Shown here: in pieces, positions 11,041-25,409 of the stretch
Numbering within the stretch: the first letter of the stretch is position 1
How the letters are laid out: each line of letters begins with the position of its first letter
Assembly: GCA_013140455.1 (NCBI GenBank)
Contig: JABFSU010000110.1
Span: 1-39,292 of the forward strand
Source of the DNA: Nitrospira sp.
GTDB lineage: Bacteria; Nitrospirota; Nitrospiria; Nitrospirales; Nitrospiraceae
Length of the DNA stretch: 39,292 nt
Reading direction: 5' to 3'
Made by a program: the position numbers and the translations under genes
Notes under the pieces: model-generated
The model's database searches: none
What the model saw: only the letters and a program-made list of their open reading frames with translations
What the model was told of the DNA's origin: nothing

Positions 11041-11144
11041 AGGACATCTCCTTTATGGCGTCAGAGAGGGAATGTGCATGGTAGTCGGATAGCGGAGGTA
11101 ATCCTTACATAAGGCGGGAGGGAAGGGCAAGAAGAGTGGATGGA

Positions 11145-11348
11145 GGGGCTGGGGCTTAACTGCTCTCGCACCTCCCGGAGCGACCCATTCGGGCTCCGCT
11201 AAGCGGAAGCCTTCGAAAATTCCCTCGCGGACTCGGTCAGTTTCCGCTTTCCTTCTTAGCGGACCCTCGATGGGTCCCCGCTCCTCCGGCAATGTTCGCG
11301 TTGAGCCCCAGCCCCTTAGGGGGGAATGGGGAAGATAGTGCAAGTCAC
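11145..11348. repeat. Dispersed 171-bp inverted-repeat element, copy A
   Basis: The core runs from GGGGCTGGGGCTTAAC (11145-11160) to its near-perfect inverse GTTGAGCCCCAGCCCC (11300-11315), so the ends can pair over 16 positions with one G-T wobble. About 33 more bases, to GTGCAAGTCAC, are also shared with copy B at 14952-15154. An internal hairpin TCCGC-TAA-GCGGA lies at 11195-11207. No protein-like frame spans it. The rest of the gap between msrB and the toxin gene (11041-11144) shows nothing recognisable. It may be a MITE-like mobile element or a structured RNA. Confidence 0.8.
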
Positions 11349-12216: not shown

Positions 12217-12651
12217 CTAAGACGGTTGCCGTGCCAGGAGGTTAAGCGTCAATGTGTCAGGCTTGCCGTCGAAGTATTTGAGCAGGGCGGCTTTGAAGAG
12301 GGTGTCGTCGGTGGCCGCGGTTGAAAATAAGGTCAGGCAGAATCGGAATTTCAGATCGTCCGGAGAGGAGAAGATCTCTTCAGCACTGCGTCCTTCCACG
12401 TTGAGAACAAGCTGCGTACATGCTCTGAGCCTGGGACCTAAGACCTGGTGTTGCAGATAGGCTTTGCCCTCGACGAGAGAGGCAATGGCAAACTTCTGTG
12501 CCATTCCACTGTGACCAAGACCGGCGATCTGCGGAAAGATAAACCAGATCCAGTGGCTGGACTTTCTCCCGGCTCGCAGTTCAGCAAGGACAGTGTCATA
12601 AACGTGCTCTTGCGCATCGAGAAAGCGTTGGAGGTTGTATCTGTCAGCCAT
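12217..12651 (-). CDS. DUF1810 protein, paralogue 1
   Basis: The 144-residue protein is a complete DUF1810 domain: YNLQRFLDAQEHVYDTVLAELRAG, the signature SSHWIWFIFPQIAGLG, AYLQHQVLGPRLR, and LKFRFCLTLFSTAA. The family has no established reaction. I start at ATG 12651, which aligns with the second copy at 15200-15628; a GTG four codons upstream is also open. The two copies are about 80 percent identical by eye. It lies downstream of the slipin gene on the same strand. Confidence 0.86.
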   Translation of the reverse strand: MADRYNLQRFLDAQEHVYDTVLAELRAGRKSSHWIWFIFPQIAGLGHSGMAQKFAIASLVEGKAYLQHQVLGPRLRACTQLVLNVEGRSAEEIFSSPDDLKFRFCLTLFSTAATDDTLFKAALLKYFDGKPDTLTLNLLARQPS

Positions 12652-12739
12652 GGACTGGCTCACTGGGGTGCCGATTCATCTGACAAGTATCGGAAGTCTG
12701 CCAGAAATTTGCAGATGAAGAGCTTTTCCGACACACGAG

Positions 12740-14855: not shown

Positions 14856-14951
14856 CGAGGTGTCCCTCCGACAGACCCGGATCAGAGTGAACCGTCACGA
14901 GCTGTTTTGAGCATACGAGCAGCCGGAAGTACTGTCAAGGAAGAGGGAGGC

Positions 14952-15154
14952 GGGGCTGGGGCTCAACAGCTATCGCACCTCCCGGAGCGCTCCATTCGGG
15001 CGCTGCTAAGCAGCAGCCTTCGGAAATTCCCTGGCGGACTCGGTCAGTTTCCGCTTTCCTTCTTAGCCGAGCTTCGATGGGTCCCCGCTCCTCCGGTGAC
15101 GTTCGCATTAAGTCCCAGCCCCTTAGGGGGGAGGGTTAAGATCGTGCAAGTCAC
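14952..15154. repeat. Dispersed 171-bp inverted-repeat element, copy B
   Basis: The core (14952-15122) has exactly the length of copy A and about 85 percent identity by eye. Its ends are GGGGCTGGGGCTCAAC and ATTAAGTCCCAGCCCC. The internal hairpin reads GCTGC-TAA-GCAGC (15002-15014); relative to copy A two base pairs changed on both sides (T-A to G-C and C-G to T-A). Such paired changes point to selection on an RNA or DNA fold. The shared sequence continues to GTGCAAGTCAC at 15154. It fills the gap between nfeD and the second DUF1810 gene; the remaining bases show nothing else. Confidence 0.8.
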
Positions 15155-15199: not shown

Positions 15200-15628
15200 C
15201 TATTGATGTGCCAGGAGGTCGAGGGTCAGTTGGTCCAGCTTGCCGTCGAAGTACTTGAGAAGGGCGGATTTGAAGATGGTATTGTCGGTGGTCGCGGTCA
15301 TAAACAAGGTCATGCATGAGCGGAATTTGAGATAGTCGGGATAGCCGAAGATCTCCTCAGCGCTGCGCCCATCCACGTTGAGAACAAGCTGCGTACATTC
15401 TCGGAGTCTGGGACCTAAGACGGGGTGTTGGAGATAGGCCTTGGCCTCATCGAGAGAGCCAATGGCGAACTTCTGCGCTGTGCCACTGCGACCAAGACCG
15501 GCGATCTGAGGAAAGATAAACCAGATCCAGTGACTGGACTTTCTCCCGGCTCGCAGCTCATCAAGGACTGTGTGATAGACGCCCTCTTGCGCGTCGAGAA
15601 AGCGGTGGAGATTGTATTCGTCGACCAT
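15200..15628 (-). CDS. DUF1810 protein, paralogue 2
   Basis: The 142-residue product matches DUF1810 over its whole length (SSHWIWFIFPQIAGLGRSG, AYLQHPVLGPRLRECTQLVL). It is closely similar to the copy at 12217-12651, with about 27 differences over some 141 aligned residues by my count, so the pair looks like a fairly recent local duplication. The two lie 2.5 kb apart in the same direction, with slipin-nfeD between them. The function is unknown. Confidence 0.86.
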   Translation of the reverse strand: MVDEYNLHRFLDAQEGVYHTVLDELRAGRKSSHWIWFIFPQIAGLGRSGTAQKFAIGSLDEAKAYLQHPVLGPRLRECTQLVLNVDGRSAEEIFGYPDYLKFRSCMTLFMTATTDNTIFKSALLKYFDGKLDQLTLDLLAHQ

Positions 15629-15908: not shown

Positions 15909-16535
15909 TTACGATAGCCTGTTAACTGCTTGATAATCATTACCTCTACAAGCGACCTCTAATCGCTGCAAGAACAGGGCATACGACTTGCGCGGACAGC
16001 GAGGCAACAACCTTCTTTCTAGAAACTCTGTCACAGGTGCAGGACCGAGGATGCTGCTTGCTGTTTGCATAGCAAAGATTTCGGCGTCCAGTTCCGCTAC
16101 GCCTAGCGGAGAGGATGGAAGAGCCCTGAACTCCGCTTGCCTCCATAAATCACGAGATACCCGCCTCAGTGCATCGGACGAAAAACCTTTCGCGCCTTGA
16201 TAGATGTGTCGCAATTCATGTGCAACAATCCAGACAAGTAGAACTTCCTCCTCTTCTAGTGCCCGCCTCGACAACCAAATTAGGTTGCGACACAGATCTT
16301 CATTCATCAAGCCAAGAACATGAGAGGGAACACGATCTTTTGGTCGATCACGGTTCCAAGAGAAGGCAAAGTCTCGAAACTCATCCAACACGGTTGCGTC
16401 GTCAGAATAATTCCCGCCGTCCAGCACGACATGGCTCGGACTATACTCAGGCTCCAGAAAATCAGCAATCTGTCTGACTAGAATCTTCTGGTCTGAAAAG
16501 GAGTGTTTTGGATATGAGAGAATTTCCATACCCAT
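15909..16535 (-). CDS. Putative zincin-like protein with HExxH motif
   Basis: I do not recognise this 208-residue protein by family. Its most telling feature is VWIVAHELRHIYQG, with HELRH at residues 106-110 giving the HExxH zinc-binding pair H106/H110 and general base E107. About 38 residues later comes ELDAEIFA (148-155), which could supply the third zinc ligand as in gluzincins. No signal peptide or membrane segment is visible, so it would be a cytosolic metallopeptidase or a domain of one. It starts at ATG 16535 (a second ATG lies two codons in) and runs away from the nuclease-helicase gene, 219 bases away. It lacks close association with any other gene. Confidence 0.62.
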   Translation of the reverse strand: MGMEILSYPKHSFSDQKILVRQIADFLEPEYSPSHVVLDGGNYSDDATVLDEFRDFAFSWNRDRPKDRVPSHVLGLMNEDLCRNLIWLSRRALEEEEVLLVWIVAHELRHIYQGAKGFSSDALRRVSRDLWRQAEFRALPSSPLGVAELDAEIFAMQTASSILGPAPVTEFLERRLLPRCPRKSYALFLQRLEVACRGNDYQAVNRLS

Positions 16536-16754
16536 CCTGATCGCAACTTCTCAAATAAATGCTTGAAGATTCTTCGCCATGTCACGCAACAGCGGCAGAT
16601 GGCGCACATCTGGATTCAGTATGGCGCGGCCCCCTGGGGCGGTCAAGGCGCAGGAAACCCCCAACGAAGGCTGCTACTTTCCCGAAGCGGTTGACACGAG
16701 TGATCGGCTATACTGCCGCTGTCCGCAGAGAAGGTCAGCGCCCAGAGGAAACCG

Positions 16755-19700
16755 ATGCCCGCAAAGCATCTCAAAGCAAAACACTGGATCGCAACCGGTA
16801 TCTTTGACACCCTCACCTCATTCCTCGATTTCGAACAGCGCATCAATGGCATTGCGGAAGAGAAAGACCGTGGCGATGTCTTTGAGATATTCGTGGAAGG
16901 GTTTCTCGCTACCCAGCCCATCATGCAGTGCGTCAGCCACTGGGTCGTCGGCGACATTCCACTGACGCTACGGCAACAATACAATCTTCCCAGCGACGCG
17001 AAGGGAATCGATGGCGTGTATGAAAGCCGCCTCGGGACGCATGTCGCCTATCAAGTCAAATACCGCCAGAAGGGCTATCTCACCTATACCGAAGTCGCAC
17101 CGTTTCTCGGTATCACCGAACGCTTTACCGAGCGCGTCATCTTCACTAATGCCAGCGAACTGGCTGAGGATGCGCTCAACCGTGAAGGGATGCGGCTGGT
17201 CCGTGGCGATGATTTTCGAGCGCTTGAACCAGAGGATCTCGCCCGAGTCGAAGCGTGGCTGAAGGCCAAGCCGCTGCCGCGGTCACCGTTTACTCCCAAG
17301 CCGTATCAAACTGCCGCACGGACCGACATCAAGGCGGCGCTCAACACACATGATCGCGCGACCGTCGTCATGGCGTGTGGGACAGGCAAAACCCTGGTCT
17401 CCTTGTGGGCAACGCAAGACGCACAACCGAAAACTGTCCTCGTCTTGCTGCCATCCCTGACACTGCTCCAACAGACATTGGGCGAGTGGAGTAAGCACCA
17501 CACCTTTAGGCCAGGCTTTCGCTATCTCTGTGTCTGTTCGGACCAAACCGTAGGCTTAGCGAATGATGAATTAGAAATCCGTCCTTCTGATGTTGAGTTT
17601 CGCATTGATACCAACCCCGAAGAAGTTACCCGTTTCCTTGCCCATCCCACAGATGATGTAAAAGTCATTTTCTCAACCTATCAGTCATCGCCTGTCGTGG
17701 GTGCAGGGGCAACAGGCTACACCTTTGATATGGGCATCTTTGATGAAGCCCACAAAACCACAGGGCGAGAGGGTGGTGCGTTCAGCTATGCGCTCTTCGA
17801 TGAGCGCCTACGCATCAGGAAGCGGCTGTTCTTCACTGCCACGCCCCGTCATTATGATATTCGCCATCGCGATAAAGAAGGCGAGTTTCGCGTGCAATCG
17901 ATGGACGATCCACAGGTCTACGGTATACGCGCCCATACGCTCTCGTTTGCGAGTGCCGCGAAGCGGGACATCATCTGCCCCTATAAAGTTGTCATCTCAC
18001 TCATCGACAAACGCATGGTCAGCGACTTTGCGCGGAAACACGGAATTACGCTGATCAAGACTGATCTCGTGCGGGCACGATGGGTAGCCAACCTGCTCGC
18101 CTTCCAGCAGGCGGTCAAGAACACAGGCGCGACCAAAGCCCTGACCTTTCATAGTCGCGTCAAGGCGGCAGAAGAGTTTGCCAGTGACACCCAGCATGGC
18201 ATCGGACGTTATCTCCACGGCTACGACGTGCGCCATGTGCATGGCAAGCAGCGAAGCTCTGAACGAAAAGCCTACATCGATGCCTTTCGCCATGCTGAGA
18301 TGGGGGTCCTCACCAATGCTCGCTGTCTGACTGAGGGTGTCGATGTGCCTGCGGTCGATATGGTGGCGTTTCTCGATCCCAAACAGAGCCGCATCGATAT
18401 CGCACAAGCGACGGGACGAGCAATGCGAAAGCCACGAGGAGCCAGCACCAAGAGGGTGGGCCATGTTGTGGTGCCGTTGTTCGCTGCCGACTTTGAGCAG
18501 GGCAGTCTGGACGAGGCAATCAAGTCCGAAGGATTTGACCAAGTCGCGGACGTTCTCAATGCCTTACAGGAGCATGATGAGGAGTTCGTGGACATCATTC
18601 GTGAACTGCGGGAGCGGAAAGGCGCTGGCGAACCGTTTGACCTCACACGCCTGCATGAGAAGGTGGAAGTCATCGGTCCTGCGGTTGACCTGGAACGTCT
18701 GAATTCCAGCATTAGCATCGCCATTGCTGATCGCATTGGAACGAGTTGGGATGAGTGGTTCGGGCGGCTCAAAGTCTATGCGCAGCGTGAAGGACATTGT
18801 CGTGTCCCCACAGAATATCGTGTCCCAGTCTCAGGCTATCGGCTCGGGCAGTGGGTCGGCAATCAACGTCGAACTAAAGACGTTATGTCTGCCGACCGTC
18901 GGCAGCGGCTCGAGGCGTTGGGGTTCGTATGGGATAAATTCGCAGCGGCGTGGGAAGAAGGGTTTCAGTCTCTCGTAGCCTTTCATCAGCGGGAAGGACA
19001 TTGTCGTGTCCCCAATGAGTATCGTGTCCCAGTCTCAGGCTATCGGCTCGGGCAGTGGGTCGGCAGGCAGCGCAAGGTTTACGACACCCTGCCACGCGAC
19101 CATCGGCAGCGGCTCGAGGCGCTGGGGTTCGTATGGGATGACTTGGCAGTGGCGTGGGAAGAAGGGTTTCAGTCTCTCGTAGCCTTTCATCAGCGAGACG
19201 GACATTGCCGTGTCCCCGCAACCTATCGTGACGCAATCTCAGGCTATCGGCTCGGGCAGTGGGTCGGCACGCAACGTCGAACTAAAGACATTATGTCTGC
19301 CGACCGTCGGCAGCGGCTCGAGGCGTTGGGGTTCGTATGGGATAAATTCGTAGCGGCGTGGGAAGAAGGGTTTCGCGCGCTCGCAGCCTTTCATCAGCGG
19401 GAAGGGCATTGTCTTGTGCCTCAGCGCTATCGTCATGCAGTTTCGGGCTTTCGGCTCGGGCAGTGGGTCGGCACGCAGCGCCAAAAGAAAGATGCCATGT
19501 CGCCAGACCGTCGGCAGCGGCTCGAGGCGCTCGGCTTTGTATGGGATCCCTTCGCGGCTTTGTGGGAAGAGGGCTTCCGTTTGCTCGCACTCTTTCACCA
19601 GCGCAAAGGGCATTGTCGCGTTCCTAATAGCCATCGCGAACAAGGCTTTCGGCTCGGGGAGTGGGTCAACGCGCAGCGCCAAAAGAAAGATGCCATGTCG

Positions 19701-19958
19701 CCAGACCGTCGGCAGCGGCTCGAGGCGCTCGGCTTTGTATGGGGTCCCTTCGCGGCTTTGTGGGAAGAGGGCTTCCGTTTCCTCGCACTCTTTCACCGGC
19801 AGGAAGGGCATTGTCGCGTGCCCGCAAGCTATCGTGATCCAGTCTCAGGCTATCGGCTCGGGCTGTGGGTCAGTGGGCAACGCAGCAACAAAGACGTCAT
19901 GTCGCCAGATCGTCGTCAGCGACTCGACGCGCTGGGGTTTGTCTGGAAGGTGCGCTGA
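16755..19958 (+). CDS. Mrr-like nuclease-SF2 helicase with six helicase-associated repeats
   Basis: The 1067-residue protein joins three parts. Residues 35-170 form a restriction-endonuclease-like domain with E48, D86 (KGIDGV) and the Q-x-K motif Q100-V-K102, the metal-binding set of Mrr-type nucleases. Residues 180-640 are a superfamily 2 helicase with Walker A ACGTGKT (207-213), DEAH (330-333), TATPRHYD (motif III, 361-368) and motif VI QATGRAMR (551-558). From residue 665 six tandem helicase-associated domains of about 68 residues follow, each with GHCxVP and RRQRLEALGFVW. The start at ATG 16755 has AGAGGA upstream. Nuclease-helicase fusions of this type are often restriction or anti-phage enzymes; this role is inference, as no methyltransferase or other partner is adjacent. 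It may act on DNA alone or with the HExxH protein encoded divergently. Confidence 0.87.
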   Translation: MPAKHLKAKHWIATGIFDTLTSFLDFEQRINGIAEEKDRGDVFEIFVEGFLATQPIMQCVSHWVVGDIPLTLRQQYNLPSDAKGIDGVYESRLGTHVAYQVKYRQKGYLTYTEVAPFLGITERFTERVIFTNASELAEDALNREGMRLVRGDDFRALEPEDLARVEAWLKAKPLPRSPFTPKPYQTAARTDIKAALNTHDRATVVMACGTGKTLVSLWATQDAQPKTVLVLLPSLTLLQQTLGEWSKHHTFRPGFRYLCVCSDQTVGLANDELEIRPSDVEFRIDTNPEEVTRFLAHPTDDVKVIFSTYQSSPVVGAGATGYTFDMGIFDEAHKTTGREGGAFSYALFDERLRIRKRLFFTATPRHYDIRHRDKEGEFRVQSMDDPQVYGIRAHTLSFASAAKRDIICPYKVVISLIDKRMVSDFARKHGITLIKTDLVRARWVANLLAFQQAVKNTGATKALTFHSRVKAAEEFASDTQHGIGRYLHGYDVRHVHGKQRSSERKAYIDAFRHAEMGVLTNARCLTEGVDVPAVDMVAFLDPKQSRIDIAQATGRAMRKPRGASTKRVGHVVVPLFAADFEQGSLDEAIKSEGFDQVADVLNALQEHDEEFVDIIRELRERKGAGEPFDLTRLHEKVEVIGPAVDLERLNSSISIAIADRIGTSWDEWFGRLKVYAQREGHCRVPTEYRVPVSGYRLGQWVGNQRRTKDVMSADRRQRLEALGFVWDKFAAAWEEGFQSLVAFHQREGHCRVPNEYRVPVSGYRLGQWVGRQRKVYDTLPRDHRQRLEALGFVWDDLAVAWEEGFQSLVAFHQRDGHCRVPATYRDAISGYRLGQWVGTQRRTKDIMSADRRQRLEALGFVWDKFVAAWEEGFRALAAFHQREGHCLVPQRYRHAVSGFRLGQWVGTQRQKKDAMSPDRRQRLEALGFVWDPFAALWEEGFRLLALFHQRKGHCRVPNSHREQGFRLGEWVNAQRQKKDAMSPDRRQRLEALGFVWGPFAALWEEGFRFLALFHRQEGHCRVPASYRDPVSGYRLGLWVSGQRSNKDVMSPDRRQRLDALGFVWKVR
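18747..19955 (+). repeat. Six tandem 204-bp coding repeats (helicase-associated domains)
   Basis: Each unit encodes about 68 residues with the pattern W-EEGF-x-x-L-x-x-F, then GHCRVP, then RLGQWV-x-x-QR and RRQRLEALGFVW. Units 1 to 3 are particularly alike, and units 4 and 5 share KKDAMSPDRRQ. Unit 5 is two residues shorter. DNA similarity between units is high, so copy number could vary by unequal recombination. Confidence 0.9.
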
Positions 19959-20139: not shown

Positions 20140-20290
20140 TTACGACGCAATTGCGGTCGCTAAAGGTTCATCCCGCTGAGCCGGTGGGGCAGGGGAGATG
20201 CGCTGAATGATGGCTGCCGGCAGGGCTTCTTCGATCCGTTCCACCGGAATGACCGTGAGTTCGTCGCCGACTCTGGTCTTCTGATCCCCT
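20140..20290 (-). pseudogene. Degraded copy of the lon 3' end (copy 1)
   Basis: On the minus strand an open stretch ends with [18 protein letters not shown], a short divergent segment and RDEPLATAIAS, then TAA. It closely follows the C-terminus of the intact Lon in this window ([28 protein letters not shown]). The DNA around the IPVERIEE codons is nearly identical over about 45 bases, and similarity also continues past the stop codon (CCGGGGCCG then TTACGACGC on the plus strand). Upstream of about residue 45 from the end the homology stops and unrelated sequence begins. There is no room for a start codon in a lon frame. The 384-base gap after the helicase otherwise shows nothing recognisable. 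Confidence 0.82.
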
Positions 20291-21411: not shown

Positions 21412-21723
21412 TTACGCCGCAGCTTTTTTGACCCGGACTTCAGCCCGATGACCGGTCGCTGCAAGGACTCGAATCAGCACGTCAGTCGAGACTCCATGGG
21501 TATTCCCATTCGCAATCGCCGTCACCCGCGTTCGTGATGTCCCGGCACTCTTCGCAATCGCCGCATGGGTGAGCCGGCCGGCTTGAATGATCTTGGCCAG
21601 TGCGACGGTGAGCTCTGACCGAAATTCCATTTCAGCTGTGTCCGCTGCTGACAAACCCAGTGCCTGCCCAAGGTCTTCGGCTGTCCGAACCGTCACTCGT
21701 TTGCTGATTCTAGTCGTTGCCAT
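21412..21723 (-). CDS. XRE-type antitoxin of a HigBA-like pair
   Basis: The 103-residue protein has an XRE-type helix-turn-helix near its centre (LTHAAIAKSAGTSRTRVTAIANG, about 51-73) and a C-terminus STDVLIRVLAATGHRAEVRVKK. It overlaps the toxin gene by 14 bases and follows it, as in higBA. The N-terminal part, including AEDLGQALGLSAADTAEMEFR, is typical of antitoxins that bind HigB-like toxins. The C-terminal stretch is repeated in degraded form at 22173-22232. It probably represses its own operon. Confidence 0.85.
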   Translation of the reverse strand: MATTRISKRVTVRTAEDLGQALGLSAADTAEMEFRSELTVALAKIIQAGRLTHAAIAKSAGTSRTRVTAIANGNTHGVSTDVLIRVLAATGHRAEVRVKKAAA

Positions 21724-22042
21724 CTACCATCTCCTGTAAACGCCGTTGGCCGAGTGCAATTTCGTGGGCCGGTGTCTTCTGCGTCTTCTTCTGAAACCCG
21801 TGAAACACGAGAATCGAGTTTGCCAGTTTTACGAAGTAAAATACTCGAACTGTTGTTGTCGCGCTTCGCACTCTGAGCTCATGCGTTCCCGATGCGACAG
21901 AAGGCATCGGTCTGCTGAGTGGGAGGCCTATGCTGATGCCTTTCTGCAGATCCCGGAGCGCTTCACCTATTTCCCGTTTGAGCAATGGCGACTGGTCACG
22001 GATAAATGCCAGGGCTTTCGGGTGAAAGGTGATCGACTTCAC
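21710..22042 (-). CDS. HigB/RelE-type toxin (phage Gp49-like)
   Basis: The 110-residue protein matches the Gp49-like HigB toxin class: FHPKALAFIRDQSPLLKREIGEALRDLQKG, then HELRVRSATTTVRVFYFVKLANSILVFHGFQKKTQKTP. The F-x-KK-TQKTP-x-E-I motif is diagnostic. Such toxins are ribosome-dependent mRNA interferases. It starts with GTG at 22042 and its last codons overlap the antitoxin start by 14 bases. No clear Shine-Dalgarno site is visible upstream. Confidence 0.87.
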   Translation of the reverse strand: MKSITFHPKALAFIRDQSPLLKREIGEALRDLQKGISIGLPLSRPMPSVASGTHELRVRSATTTVRVFYFVKLANSILVFHGFQKKTQKTPAHEIALGQRRLQEMVDGND

Positions 22043-22244: not shown

Positions 22245-22622
22245 CTATCGATTTCTTCTGATCCTGATGGCGTCACGGTCAACGATCACCAGTGCTCGAG
22301 CCAGCTCCACATCCGGTATTTCCCCGAGAAGCCGTTGAAGTGCTTCCTGGGTTTCTTCAATCGTTGTCGGCCAAACACGGAGTCGAATAATGCCGGCATG
22401 GGAACCGACTGGAAACGATCTCTGATCCGCGAAATCTTCATCGAAGGTGATGATGATGGCTTGTCGGCTCTGTGCCCAGATAAAGATCTCTTCATCAGGC
22501 TGTCCGGACAAGGCGACATCTGAGGTGTGATAAATCGTCCAGTGTGGGCGACGGGTGCGCAGCCACTGCGCTATGGCTCGAGGAACGTTTTGATCGAGCA
22601 GGACGGTGAGCGGCTCAGGCAC
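22245..22622 (-). CDS. DUF5615 PIN-like toxin
   Basis: The 125-residue protein matches the DUF5615 (PIN-like) family: LTVLLDQNVPRAIAQWL with the acidic D-x-N start, SDVALSGQPDEEIFIWAQ, IIITFDEDFADQR and GIIRLRVWPTT. The acidic residues D10, the D/E pairs near 43-44 and D61-D64 are arranged as in PIN-type RNases. It is the toxin-like partner of the DUF433 gene, overlapping it by eight bases and following it. GTG at 22622 is the start. RNase activity has not been proved for the family as a whole. Confidence 0.85.
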   Translation of the reverse strand: MPEPLTVLLDQNVPRAIAQWLRTRRPHWTIYHTSDVALSGQPDEEIFIWAQSRQAIIITFDEDFADQRSFPVGSHAGIIRLRVWPTTIEETQEALQRLLGEIPDVELARALVIVDRDAIRIRRNR

Positions 22623-22839
22623 GGGGAATCACTTTGTCTTCATCGATTACGTGGCTGGCATAGTCTAACGCCGATGCCACATCCTCACGGGTTAACTCCG
22701 GATAGGTTTCTAGAATCCGGTCGCTGGTATAGCCACCTGCAATCAGACCGAGGATGTTGGTCACCATGATCCGAGTCCCTCGGATGCATGGTTTCCCACT
22801 GCAGATATGGGGATCGATGCTGATTCGATCGTAGCGCAT
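22615..22839 (-). CDS. DUF433 antitoxin-like protein
   Basis: The 74-residue protein is a complete DUF433 domain: DPHICSGKPCIRGTRIMVTNILGLIAGGYTSDRILETYPELTREDVASALDYA. DUF433 proteins are usually paired with DUF5615 PIN-like proteins and act as VapB-like antitoxins. The pair overlaps by eight bases. The start ATG 22839 has GGAGGG seven bases upstream. It is the first gene of the operon that ends with the DUF5615 gene. Confidence 0.88.
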   Translation of the reverse strand: MRYDRISIDPHICSGKPCIRGTRIMVTNILGLIAGGYTSDRILETYPELTREDVASALDYASHVIDEDKVIPRA

Positions 22840-23018: not shown

Positions 23019-25409
23019 TTACGACGCGGTCGAGGTCGCGAGTGGTTCGTCTCGTTCGGCTGGCGCCACGCGATCCTGATTGAAGGCCGCCGGCAGGACT
23101 TCTTCGATCCGTTCCACCGGAATGAACGTGAGCTGATCGCGCACTTCCTGTGGCACTTCTTTCAGATCCCGCTCGTTGGCCTTCGGCAGAATGATCCGCC
23201 GGATACCCGCACGATGGGCCGCCAGGACCTTCTCCTTGATGCCGCCGACCGGCAGCACCAATCCACTCAAGCTGATTTCTCCCGTCATGGCCGTATCGCT
23301 GCGGACGGCTTTGCCCACGTAGGACGAGGCAAGGGCCGTGGCCATGGTGATACCGGCTGACGGGCCGTCTTTCGGGATCGCACCTGAGGGCACATGGATA
23401 TGGACCCCGTTGCGTTTGAACTTCGAAATATCCAGCCCCATGCTCTCGGCATGCGACCAGAGATAGCTCCGGGCTGCGCGTGCCGACTCCTGCATCACAT
23501 CGCCGAGCTGTCCCGTCAGGGTCAGTTCATGACTTCCCGGAAGCAGCGTTGTTTCGATGTAGAGGACGTCGCCTCCAGCTGGTGTCCAGGCCAGACCGGT
23601 GGCCACACCGGGAGGCAGCGTTTTGCGCCCTTCTTCCGGCATGAATCGTTCTGAGCCGAGCCATTCATCCAGCATGTCCGGGCGAATGGTCACCGGCTGG
23701 CGCTCCTGGCCCTCCGGGAGCTCCGCGAAGGCTAAGGCCACTTTTCTCGTCAACCGTCCGAGCATTTGCTCCAGCTGGCGCACACCGGCTTCCCTGGTGT
23801 ACCGGCTGGTGACGAGATTCAACACCTCGTCTGACAGCAACGCCTGTTCGGCATTCAAGCCCGCTTCCTTCAATCGTCTCGGCCAGAGGTAACGGCGAGC
23901 GATTTCCGCCTTCTCATGTTCGCTGTAGCCTTGCAGGCGGATGATCTCCATCCGGTCCAACAAGGGTTGGCTGATCGTATCCAGCGTATTCGCCGTCGTG
24001 ATGAAAAAGGCTTTCGACAAATCGAAGGGGAGATCCAGATAGTGGTCGCGGAACGTGTGGTTCTGCGCCGGATCGAGAATCTCCAACAGGGCTGCCGCGG
24101 GATCGCCGCGGAAGTCGCGCCCCATCTTGTCGACTTCATCGAGCATGAGCACCGGATTGTTCACCCCGGCTCGCCGTACGGCTTGAATGATATGGCCAGG
24201 CAACGCACCGACATAGGTGCGGCGATGCCCGCGCAACTCGGCTTCATCGTGCACGCCGCCCAGGCTGAGTCGCTCGAACGTCCGGCCCATGGCCCTGGCG
24301 ATCGATTGCCCCAGGCTCGTCTTGCCGACACCCGGAGGGCCGACTAAGCAGAGAATCGGTGCCTTTGCCGACGGATTCAGCTTCAAGACGGCGAGATGCT
24401 CTACGATCCGCTCTTTCACTTCTTTGATGCCGTAATGATCTTCTTCGAGCACCTGCCGGACGGTCGCCAGATCAATCGCATCTGCCGAGGCTTTCTTCCA
24501 GGGCAATTCGAGCACCAGTTCCAGATAGGTCCGGAGCACCTGATGATCTGCCGACGAGGGCGGCACTTTGGCCAGGCGCTTGAGCTCGCGTTCCGCTTCC
24601 TTCCGCACATGGTCGGGCAGGTCTGCCTCGGTCACTTGTTTCTTGAGATGGGCGATCTCGTTGTCGTCGCCGTCGTCTTCGCCCAGTTCCTGTTGAATCG
24701 TTTTCAATTGCTCGCGCAACATGTATTCGCGCTGGCTTTTGCCGATCTTCGCCTGCGCATCGCTCGTGATCTTGTCGCGGAGCTGCAGAATTTGAATCTC
24801 CTTGGACAAGGCCACGTAGAGGGCGCGCAACAGATCCAGCGTCGCAGTGCTTTCGAGCAGCTTCTGCTCTTCGGCCACGCTCAGATTGACCAGAGAGGCC
24901 ACGCGATAGGCCAGGGCTACCGGATCATCTTCATGGCTTAACGCTTCACTGGCCTCTTGCATGCCGGGGGCTTGGATCACCCGCGGGAGTTCCGTCACCA
25001 GTTCCTGAATCGCCCGATGCATGGCCTGCACTTCCGTGCCGGTCTCTGACGGGCGGTCCAGGGACCGGACCCGTGCGATGGCATAGGGGGTCGATTGGGT
25101 TTCTTCGATGATCGCCACGCGGTCTACGCCCTGGACAAACGCGTGAATCGCGCCTTCCGAGGACTGGCCGATCTGCTTAATGATGGCTTTGGTGCCGATC
25201 GTATAGAGGTCGCTCAAGCCCGGTTCTTCGGTCTGCGAGTCGCGCTGAGCCACGACCAGGATCATCTTCTCTTCTGTCTTCATCGCTGCCTGCACCGCCG
25301 CCATCGATCGTTCGCGACCGACGGTGAGGGGCATCATGACGCCGGGAAATAAGACGGTCCGCTTGATCGGTAATATGGGTAGGGTCAGCACTTTGGTCTC
25401 GCTGTCCAT
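23019..25409 (-). CDS. lon: ATP-dependent protease Lon (LonA)
   Basis: The 796-residue enzyme is a complete LonA, the cytosolic quality-control protease. The N-terminal substrate-binding domain (about 10-210) starts [19 protein letters not shown]. An ATPase module follows with Walker A GPPGVGKT (357-364), LMLDEVDK (421-428, Walker B), and sensor TTANTLDTI. The protease domain holds the catalytic dyad S684 in [12 protein letters not shown] and K727 in [12 protein letters not shown], with the expected 43-residue spacing. AAGGA lies seven bases before the ATG. The C-terminus ([13 protein letters not shown] to [10 protein letters not shown]) is the part found in duplicate fragments downstream. 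A GC-rich hairpin follows the stop. Confidence 0.98.

Follow-up and report, generated by a model that had tools for sequence, protein, structure and literature searches.

What is a run of helicase-associated (HA) repeats doing at the end of a protein that also carries a nuclease and an SF2 motor? The question is raised by one gene in a 39,292-nucleotide stretch of Nitrospira sp. DNA, called the window here, to which all positions refer. The gene is real: a single open reading frame of 1067 codons occupies 16755-19958 on the forward strand, and its start context, AGAGGAAACCG followed directly by ATG, is conserved among relatives. The aligned upstream DNA was also inspected by eye for a conserved sigma-70-like promoter; since the spacing does not fit, none is claimed. 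Neither an associated RNA nor an integration site came up in Rfam and tRNA scans. The parts of the gene are as follows.

16744..16754, +, AGAGGAAACCG, a ribosome-binding-site-like sequence directly 5′ of the ATG and conserved among relatives
16755..19958, +, whole gene (1067 aa), encoding an Mrr nuclease, an SF2 motor and six HA repeats
16812..17249, +, Mrr/PD-(D/E)xK nuclease domain, residues 20-165 (LlaBIII alignment, invariant residues, alpha-beta order in the model)
17010..17060, +, predicted active site of the nuclease, from D86 to K102 (QVK) (residue positions, conservation in 8 homologues)
17283..18479, +, SF2 helicase-like motor, residues 177-575 (Pfam ResIII and Helicase_C, LlaBIII alignment)
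17388-17390, +, K212 of the motor GTGKT (sequence)
17742-17753, +, motor DEAH, residues 330-333 (sequence)
18480..18746, +, helical linker (residues 576-664) joining motor and array, where Type ISP enzymes have the coupler (model secondary structure; partial LlaBIII alignment, to residue 620)
18747..18950, +, HA repeat 1, residues 665-732 (Pfam HA)
18951..19154, +, HA repeat 2, residues 733-800 (Pfam HA)
19155..19358, +, HA repeat 3, residues 801-868 (Pfam HA)
19359..19562, +, HA repeat 4, residues 869-936 (Pfam HA)
19563..19760, +, HA repeat 5, residues 937-1002 (Pfam HA)
19761..19955, +, HA repeat 6, residues 1003-1067 (Pfam HA)

Domain organization and relation to Type ISP enzymes

An initial annotation, made from the sequence alone, had described an E...D...Q-x-K nuclease, an SF2 motor and six C-terminal HA repeats, and this organization was borne out. 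D86 (GID), Q100-x-K102 (QVK) and K212 (GTGKT) are all in place, and each of the six repeats matches Pfam HA (PF03457) with 62-77 bits, above the curated cut-off of 28.4, for a total of 375 bits. E44, D86, Q100, K102 and the motor motifs are invariant in 8 of 8 diverse nuclease-HA homologues, which span Nitrospirota to a Rhodococcus linear plasmid; E44 is likely the further acidic residue of the nuclease.

Residues 22-620 of the protein align with residues 14-657 of LlaBIII, the best PDB match by sequence (E 6e-54), and the motor aligns with LlaGI (E 2e-47). LlaBIII is also the top PDB fold match of the AlphaFold2 model of the full chain (mean pLDDT 84; Foldseek E 1.5e-31), followed by LlaGI and SauUSI. 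In PADLOC, models of Type IIG/Type I REase-MTase match best, and the top-scoring stretch lies within the nuclease and motor. The Type ISP enzymes LlaBIII and LlaGI resemble the window protein in having an N-terminal Mrr nuclease with D...QxK and then an SF2 motor in one chain. Past the motor, the Type ISP chain continues with a coupler, a gamma-class N6-adenine methyltransferase (MTase) and a target-recognition domain (TRD) (PMC4872093). In contrast, the window protein lacks the MTase-TRD unit, and the HA array sits there instead. Pfam and NCBIfam scans detected no methyltransferase family in the protein, and only HA repeats follow residue 664. Similarly, no target-recognition domain was found, since the LlaBIII alignment stops at residue 620 and the C-terminus is all HA. 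An NPPY-type motif, present in 39 Type ISP relatives, is absent from the C-termini of the close homologues of the window protein.

Type IV ATP-dependent restriction enzymes also combine motor and nuclease in one chain without a methyltransferase. One of them is SauUSI (7clg), which follows the Type ISP enzymes as the next kind in the list of fold matches. Unlike the window protein, SauUSI has a modified-DNA reader and no HA repeats, and its nuclease fold is of the phospholipase-D type, differing from that of the window protein. The earlier suggestion of a single-protein restriction-like enzyme is well supported by sequence, by fold and by the invariance of the nuclease residues in the 8 homologues, but the loss of MTase and TRD, their replacement by HA repeats and the fast change of the array had not been noticed.

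To place the protein among its relatives, about 100 motor-sharing proteins were gathered by a profile scan of viral contigs and from loci in genomes and plasmids. Their architectures were nuclease, motor and methyltransferase (Type ISP); nuclease, motor and HA; motor and HA without nuclease; and nuclease and motor with other C-termini. In a quick motor tree, the MTase-bearing Type ISP enzymes formed one clade (support 100), and the window group, consisting of five Nitrospira proteins with L042 and L054, was located elsewhere (support 97). Lying outside the Type ISP clade, the window group counts as its cousin rather than as part of it. Other C-termini were also seen. In L047 (4458-7778), an order-level relative, a similar nuclease and motor are followed by INT_rpt-like repeats, of which no single stretch passes; here a different repeat may have replaced the recognition part in parallel. 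L063, L064, L068-L071, L076 and L080 are nuclease-motor proteins of about 935-990 aa without HA repeats or a methyltransferase motif, and their C-terminal part of about 300 aa had no Pfam match in the three members scanned.

The repeats of the window gene measure 65-68 residues and share 61-80% identity in amino acids and 69-85% in DNA, so that their first description as near-identical and very alike in DNA was too strong. The array has a pI of 10.2, versus 6.8 for the core. In a model of a four-repeat array (mean pLDDT 89), each repeat consists of a long helix, an extended loop with GHCRVP and two shorter helices. Compared with the PDB, the array model gave no Foldseek match at E <= 0.001, and VIA-align Z values did not exceed 4.2. 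In a viral library its matches were for the most part giant-virus helicases of the HA type, together with one siphovirus protein, which is uninformative on function. A literature search on bacterial HA repeats found no experiment or functional work. The HA domain has been suggested to bind nucleic acid, and the array of the window protein may bind DNA.

Variation of the HA array

The number of repeats differs among close relatives. It is four in L037 and L039, six in the window gene and L038, and eight in L041, and the array of L040 has six plus three repeats across a frame break. The earlier guess that copy number may change is therefore confirmed across relatives, with 4 to 8 or more repeats at core identities of 84-92%. 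At this core identity, the arrays of the close relatives align with that of the window protein at only 59-63%. Similar differences were observed in two separate nuclease-bearing lineages: L042 and L165 (core 88%) have 2 versus 4 repeats with 52% array identity, and L043 and L046 (core 76%) have 8 versus 5 repeats with 55%. L044 and L168 both have three repeats, with the array at 63% and the core at 80%. Modules also move, as judged by eye, for repeats L040.1 and L041.6 have several variable letters in common (DK...QN). L038 contains an internal stop and L040 the break within its array; the gene is thus frequently either lost or misassembled. Isolated single HA-like stretches at L167 2013-2192 and in L166, one with an in-frame stop, are probable remnants of lost copies.

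HA helicases in Pfam, TtrA included, likewise have an SF2 motor followed by several HA repeats. TtrA has been linked to the transfer of linear Streptomyces plasmids (PMC8743542, PMC9195940). Unlike the window protein, it has no nuclease, the protein beginning at the motor, and its four-repeat array is fixed. For comparison we took eight orthologues of the TtrA type, which are encoded on Streptomyces linear plasmids and have core identities of 0.86-0.96. Exactly four HA repeats were present in all eight, and the arrays were alignable in place with 72-87% identity and dN/dS of 0.16-0.48. Because these arrays are stable at similar core divergence, fast array change is not general to HA helicases, and there is a clear contrast between the fast array of nuclease-bearing enzymes and the stable array of plasmid-transfer helicases.

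We determined which positions vary using 35 repeats from six genes. W1, G16, L33, W36, Q40, R43, L57, L60, F62 and W64 never varied, although synonymous change was frequent where the codon allows it, and about 18 of the 68 repeat positions (6, 7, 9, 10, 12, 22, 23, 29, 35, 38, 39, 44, 45, 48 and 66-69) were hypervariable. Variation was found at the same positions in every genome compared. From sequence and model together, the variable letters appear to lie in the long helix, the loop and the second helix, and the third helix seems to keep its charged letters (RRQR).

To avoid circularity, the hypervariable set was picked on other genomes before rates were calculated. In the closest repeat pairs of the window gene, dN was 0.62 and dS 0.32 at the hypervariable positions (dN/dS about 2), versus 0.07 and 0.21 in the framework. 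In 17 non-overlapping closest pairs, hypervariable dN was 0.66 and dS was 0.53 (all positions) or 0.44 (same positions), giving dN/dS of about 1.3-1.6 by a counting method on few genomes; framework dN was 0.13. The excess over 1 in these pairs had a one-sided p of 0.009 with the all-position dS and 0.003 with the same-position dS. For the four closest pairs alone the excess was weak (p = 0.035 with all synonymous sites and 0.17 with those of the hypervariable codons). The repeat framework had a dN/dS of about 0.2, and the nuclease-motor core, at 0.08-0.17, is under strong purifying selection. These counts are evidence that, within a conserved framework, a fixed set of positions changes as fast as neutral sites or faster. 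Our main new result is that the array, in the place that the MTase-TRD unit has in Type ISP enzymes, diversifies much faster than the core.

Distribution and possible function

The DNA similarity of five close relatives to the window begins at 16617-16755 and is over by 19989. The genes that flank these relatives are unrelated, mostly housekeeping-looking and different in each genome; by eye, L040 and L041 seem to share the downstream side. Of 79 genomes of the genus, only 3 have a close copy, counting that of the window, and in the family 14 of 175 genomes gave HA matches; the window gene is the sole HA protein detected in its genome. No recurring partner gene was seen beside the close relatives. 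The window gene is thus a lone, patchily distributed accessory gene. The accessory location proposed initially agrees with the edges of DNA similarity at the gene and with the unrelated flanks. Consistent housekeeping contexts of homologues had been put forward as an argument against a defence role, and this argument does not apply, because the gene is accessory and solitary and its flanks are unrelated.

We favour, with a probability of about 0.52, the explanation that the window protein is a methyltransferase-less, single-chain, ATP-driven restriction-like defence enzyme of Type ISP-like kind, with an HA array that serves as a rapidly diversifying recognition module; DNA binding by the array, translocation, cleavage, defence and how self is spared are what we infer for it. 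Standing where Type ISP enzymes have the MTase-TRD unit, the array would pick the target. Binding of the target would lead to ATP-driven translocation of the SF2 motor on double-stranded DNA, and the Mrr nuclease would cut once motors stall or meet, both as in Type ISP. Each HA repeat would be a module of three helices in which about 18 positions change fast within a fixed framework, and duplication, loss and shuffling of modules would reset the recognition by the array. Since there is no methyltransferase in the chain, self-protection would have to come from the target being foreign: a sequence missing from the host, a modified base, or a state of phage or plasmid DNA.

The main rival explanation keeps the restriction-like defence enzyme and assigns the array a different task, namely to bind DNA nonspecifically or to hold partners, with a surface that varies to escape phage inhibitors. 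The domain and distribution evidence is the same for both, hypervariable positions on a fixed framework with dN/dS >=1 fit inhibitor escape as well as retargeting, and copy number can vary while the architecture stays much the same. However, the recognition unit of Type ISP enzymes occupies exactly this region of the chain (PMC4872093), and nothing else in the window protein could obviously serve as one; we regard inhibitor escape as a tentative alternative. A role as a TtrA-like maintenance or transfer helicase of a plasmid or mobile element, left in the chromosome and with a nuclease that processes DNA ends or replication intermediates, is somewhat less likely. HA helicases are abundant on plasmids (768 matching records), the Streptomyces members sit at linear-plasmid ends and are reported as TtrA (PMC9195940, PMC8743542), and nuclease-less HA helicases of this kind serve plasmid transfer, TtrA being required when linear Streptomyces plasmids are transferred by conjugation. 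Against this, the TtrA-type proteins lack the nuclease and have the stable four-repeat array, a contrast that makes a plasmid-transfer role less likely, and no replication, partition or transfer gene was recognized among the scanned neighbours of the window gene. TtrA-type genes sit at the ends of linear replicons; the window gene lies 16.8 kb inside a 39-kb contig, in a replicon that may be linear or circular.

Plain slippage and relaxed constraint could also make an array variable without selection in a gene drifting to loss, and the internal stop of L038, the frame break of L040 and a dN/dS only modestly above 1 at the hypervariable positions point in this direction. Yet the low dN/dS of core and framework means that the proteins are kept, and the same positions vary in every genome, which leaves this explanation improbable. 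Also improbable is DNA repair by a nuclease and SF2 motor in the manner of RadD, XPB-Bax1 or Hef, where the repeats would act as a general DNA clamp. The helicase-level matches to RadD, XPB and Hef are weak, far weaker than the Type ISP match; the patchy presence in genus and family and the differing flanks disfavour a repair enzyme, and a general clamp does not explain the fast change of the array.

Returning to the array as a recognition module, a bolder form, which we consider doubtful, is that HA arrays are natural modular DNA readers, in which the variable residues of each repeat read one piece of the target and retargeting proceeds by duplication and shuffling, without a methyltransferase. 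In that case HA would be a recognition system built of repeats, with no relation to TAL effectors and coupled to a nuclease-motor. TAL effectors and other modular repeat readers are alike in manner, with tandem modules of fixed framework and variable positions, and no sequence relation is claimed; unlike them, the HA repeat has 65-68 aa and three helices, and its reading of DNA is putative. Type ISP specificity is hard to re-engineer at will (PMC4872093), and here a shuffling repeat array appears to stand where the methyltransferase-bound recognition unit would be. If the array reads DNA, it would be a new modular recognition scaffold, and restriction would spare self with no need of methylation. 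Should it do no more than evade phage inhibitors, a widespread, functionally obscure domain would still gain a function, and the evolutionary signature makes the function of HA repeats directly testable.

Neighbouring genes and repeated DNA

The toxin-antitoxin pairs said to lie nearby were found by Pfam:

21412-22042, toxin-antitoxin-like pair Gp49/HTH_37
22245-22839, toxin-antitoxin-like pair DUF5615/DUF433

An IS110 scrap, also reported initially, was not supported, as the two IS110 domains, PF01548 and PF02371, gave no match in the whole genome. A transposase gene adjoins L040, and a BrnT/CopG toxin-antitoxin pair adjoins L041. Known defence genes, which the annotation had proposed to look for in homologous loci, were not found beside the window copy or its close relatives; two distant relatives do lie 4-5 bp from PADLOC defence candidates, one with DUF3644 (PDC-S19, E 9e-134) and one with DUF4238 (DUF4238-Pers). 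The Rhodococcus relative has a NACHT gene two genes away. No methyltransferase was recognized among the scanned neighbours of the window gene.

Divergent from the nuclease-motor gene is a gene at 15909-16535 (-) for a 208-aa protein with an HExxH-like motif (AHELRHIYQ); its G+C is 0.49 versus 0.59, and it had no Pfam, NCBIfam or PADLOC match. Just downstream of the nuclease-motor gene, a 70-nt stretch (20203-20272) is 86% identical to 23076-23145 within lon (23019-25409, -), and is perhaps a scrap of a duplicated lon. Two DUF1810 genes, at 12217-12663 (-) and 15200-15628 (-), are 81% identical over 300 nt, and near each of them is a 191-nt element (11135-11325 and 14942-15132; 87% identical). 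A similar element lies upstream of the HA-helicase gene of L044 (7840-8328), and the 191-nt element is perhaps a dispersed repeat.
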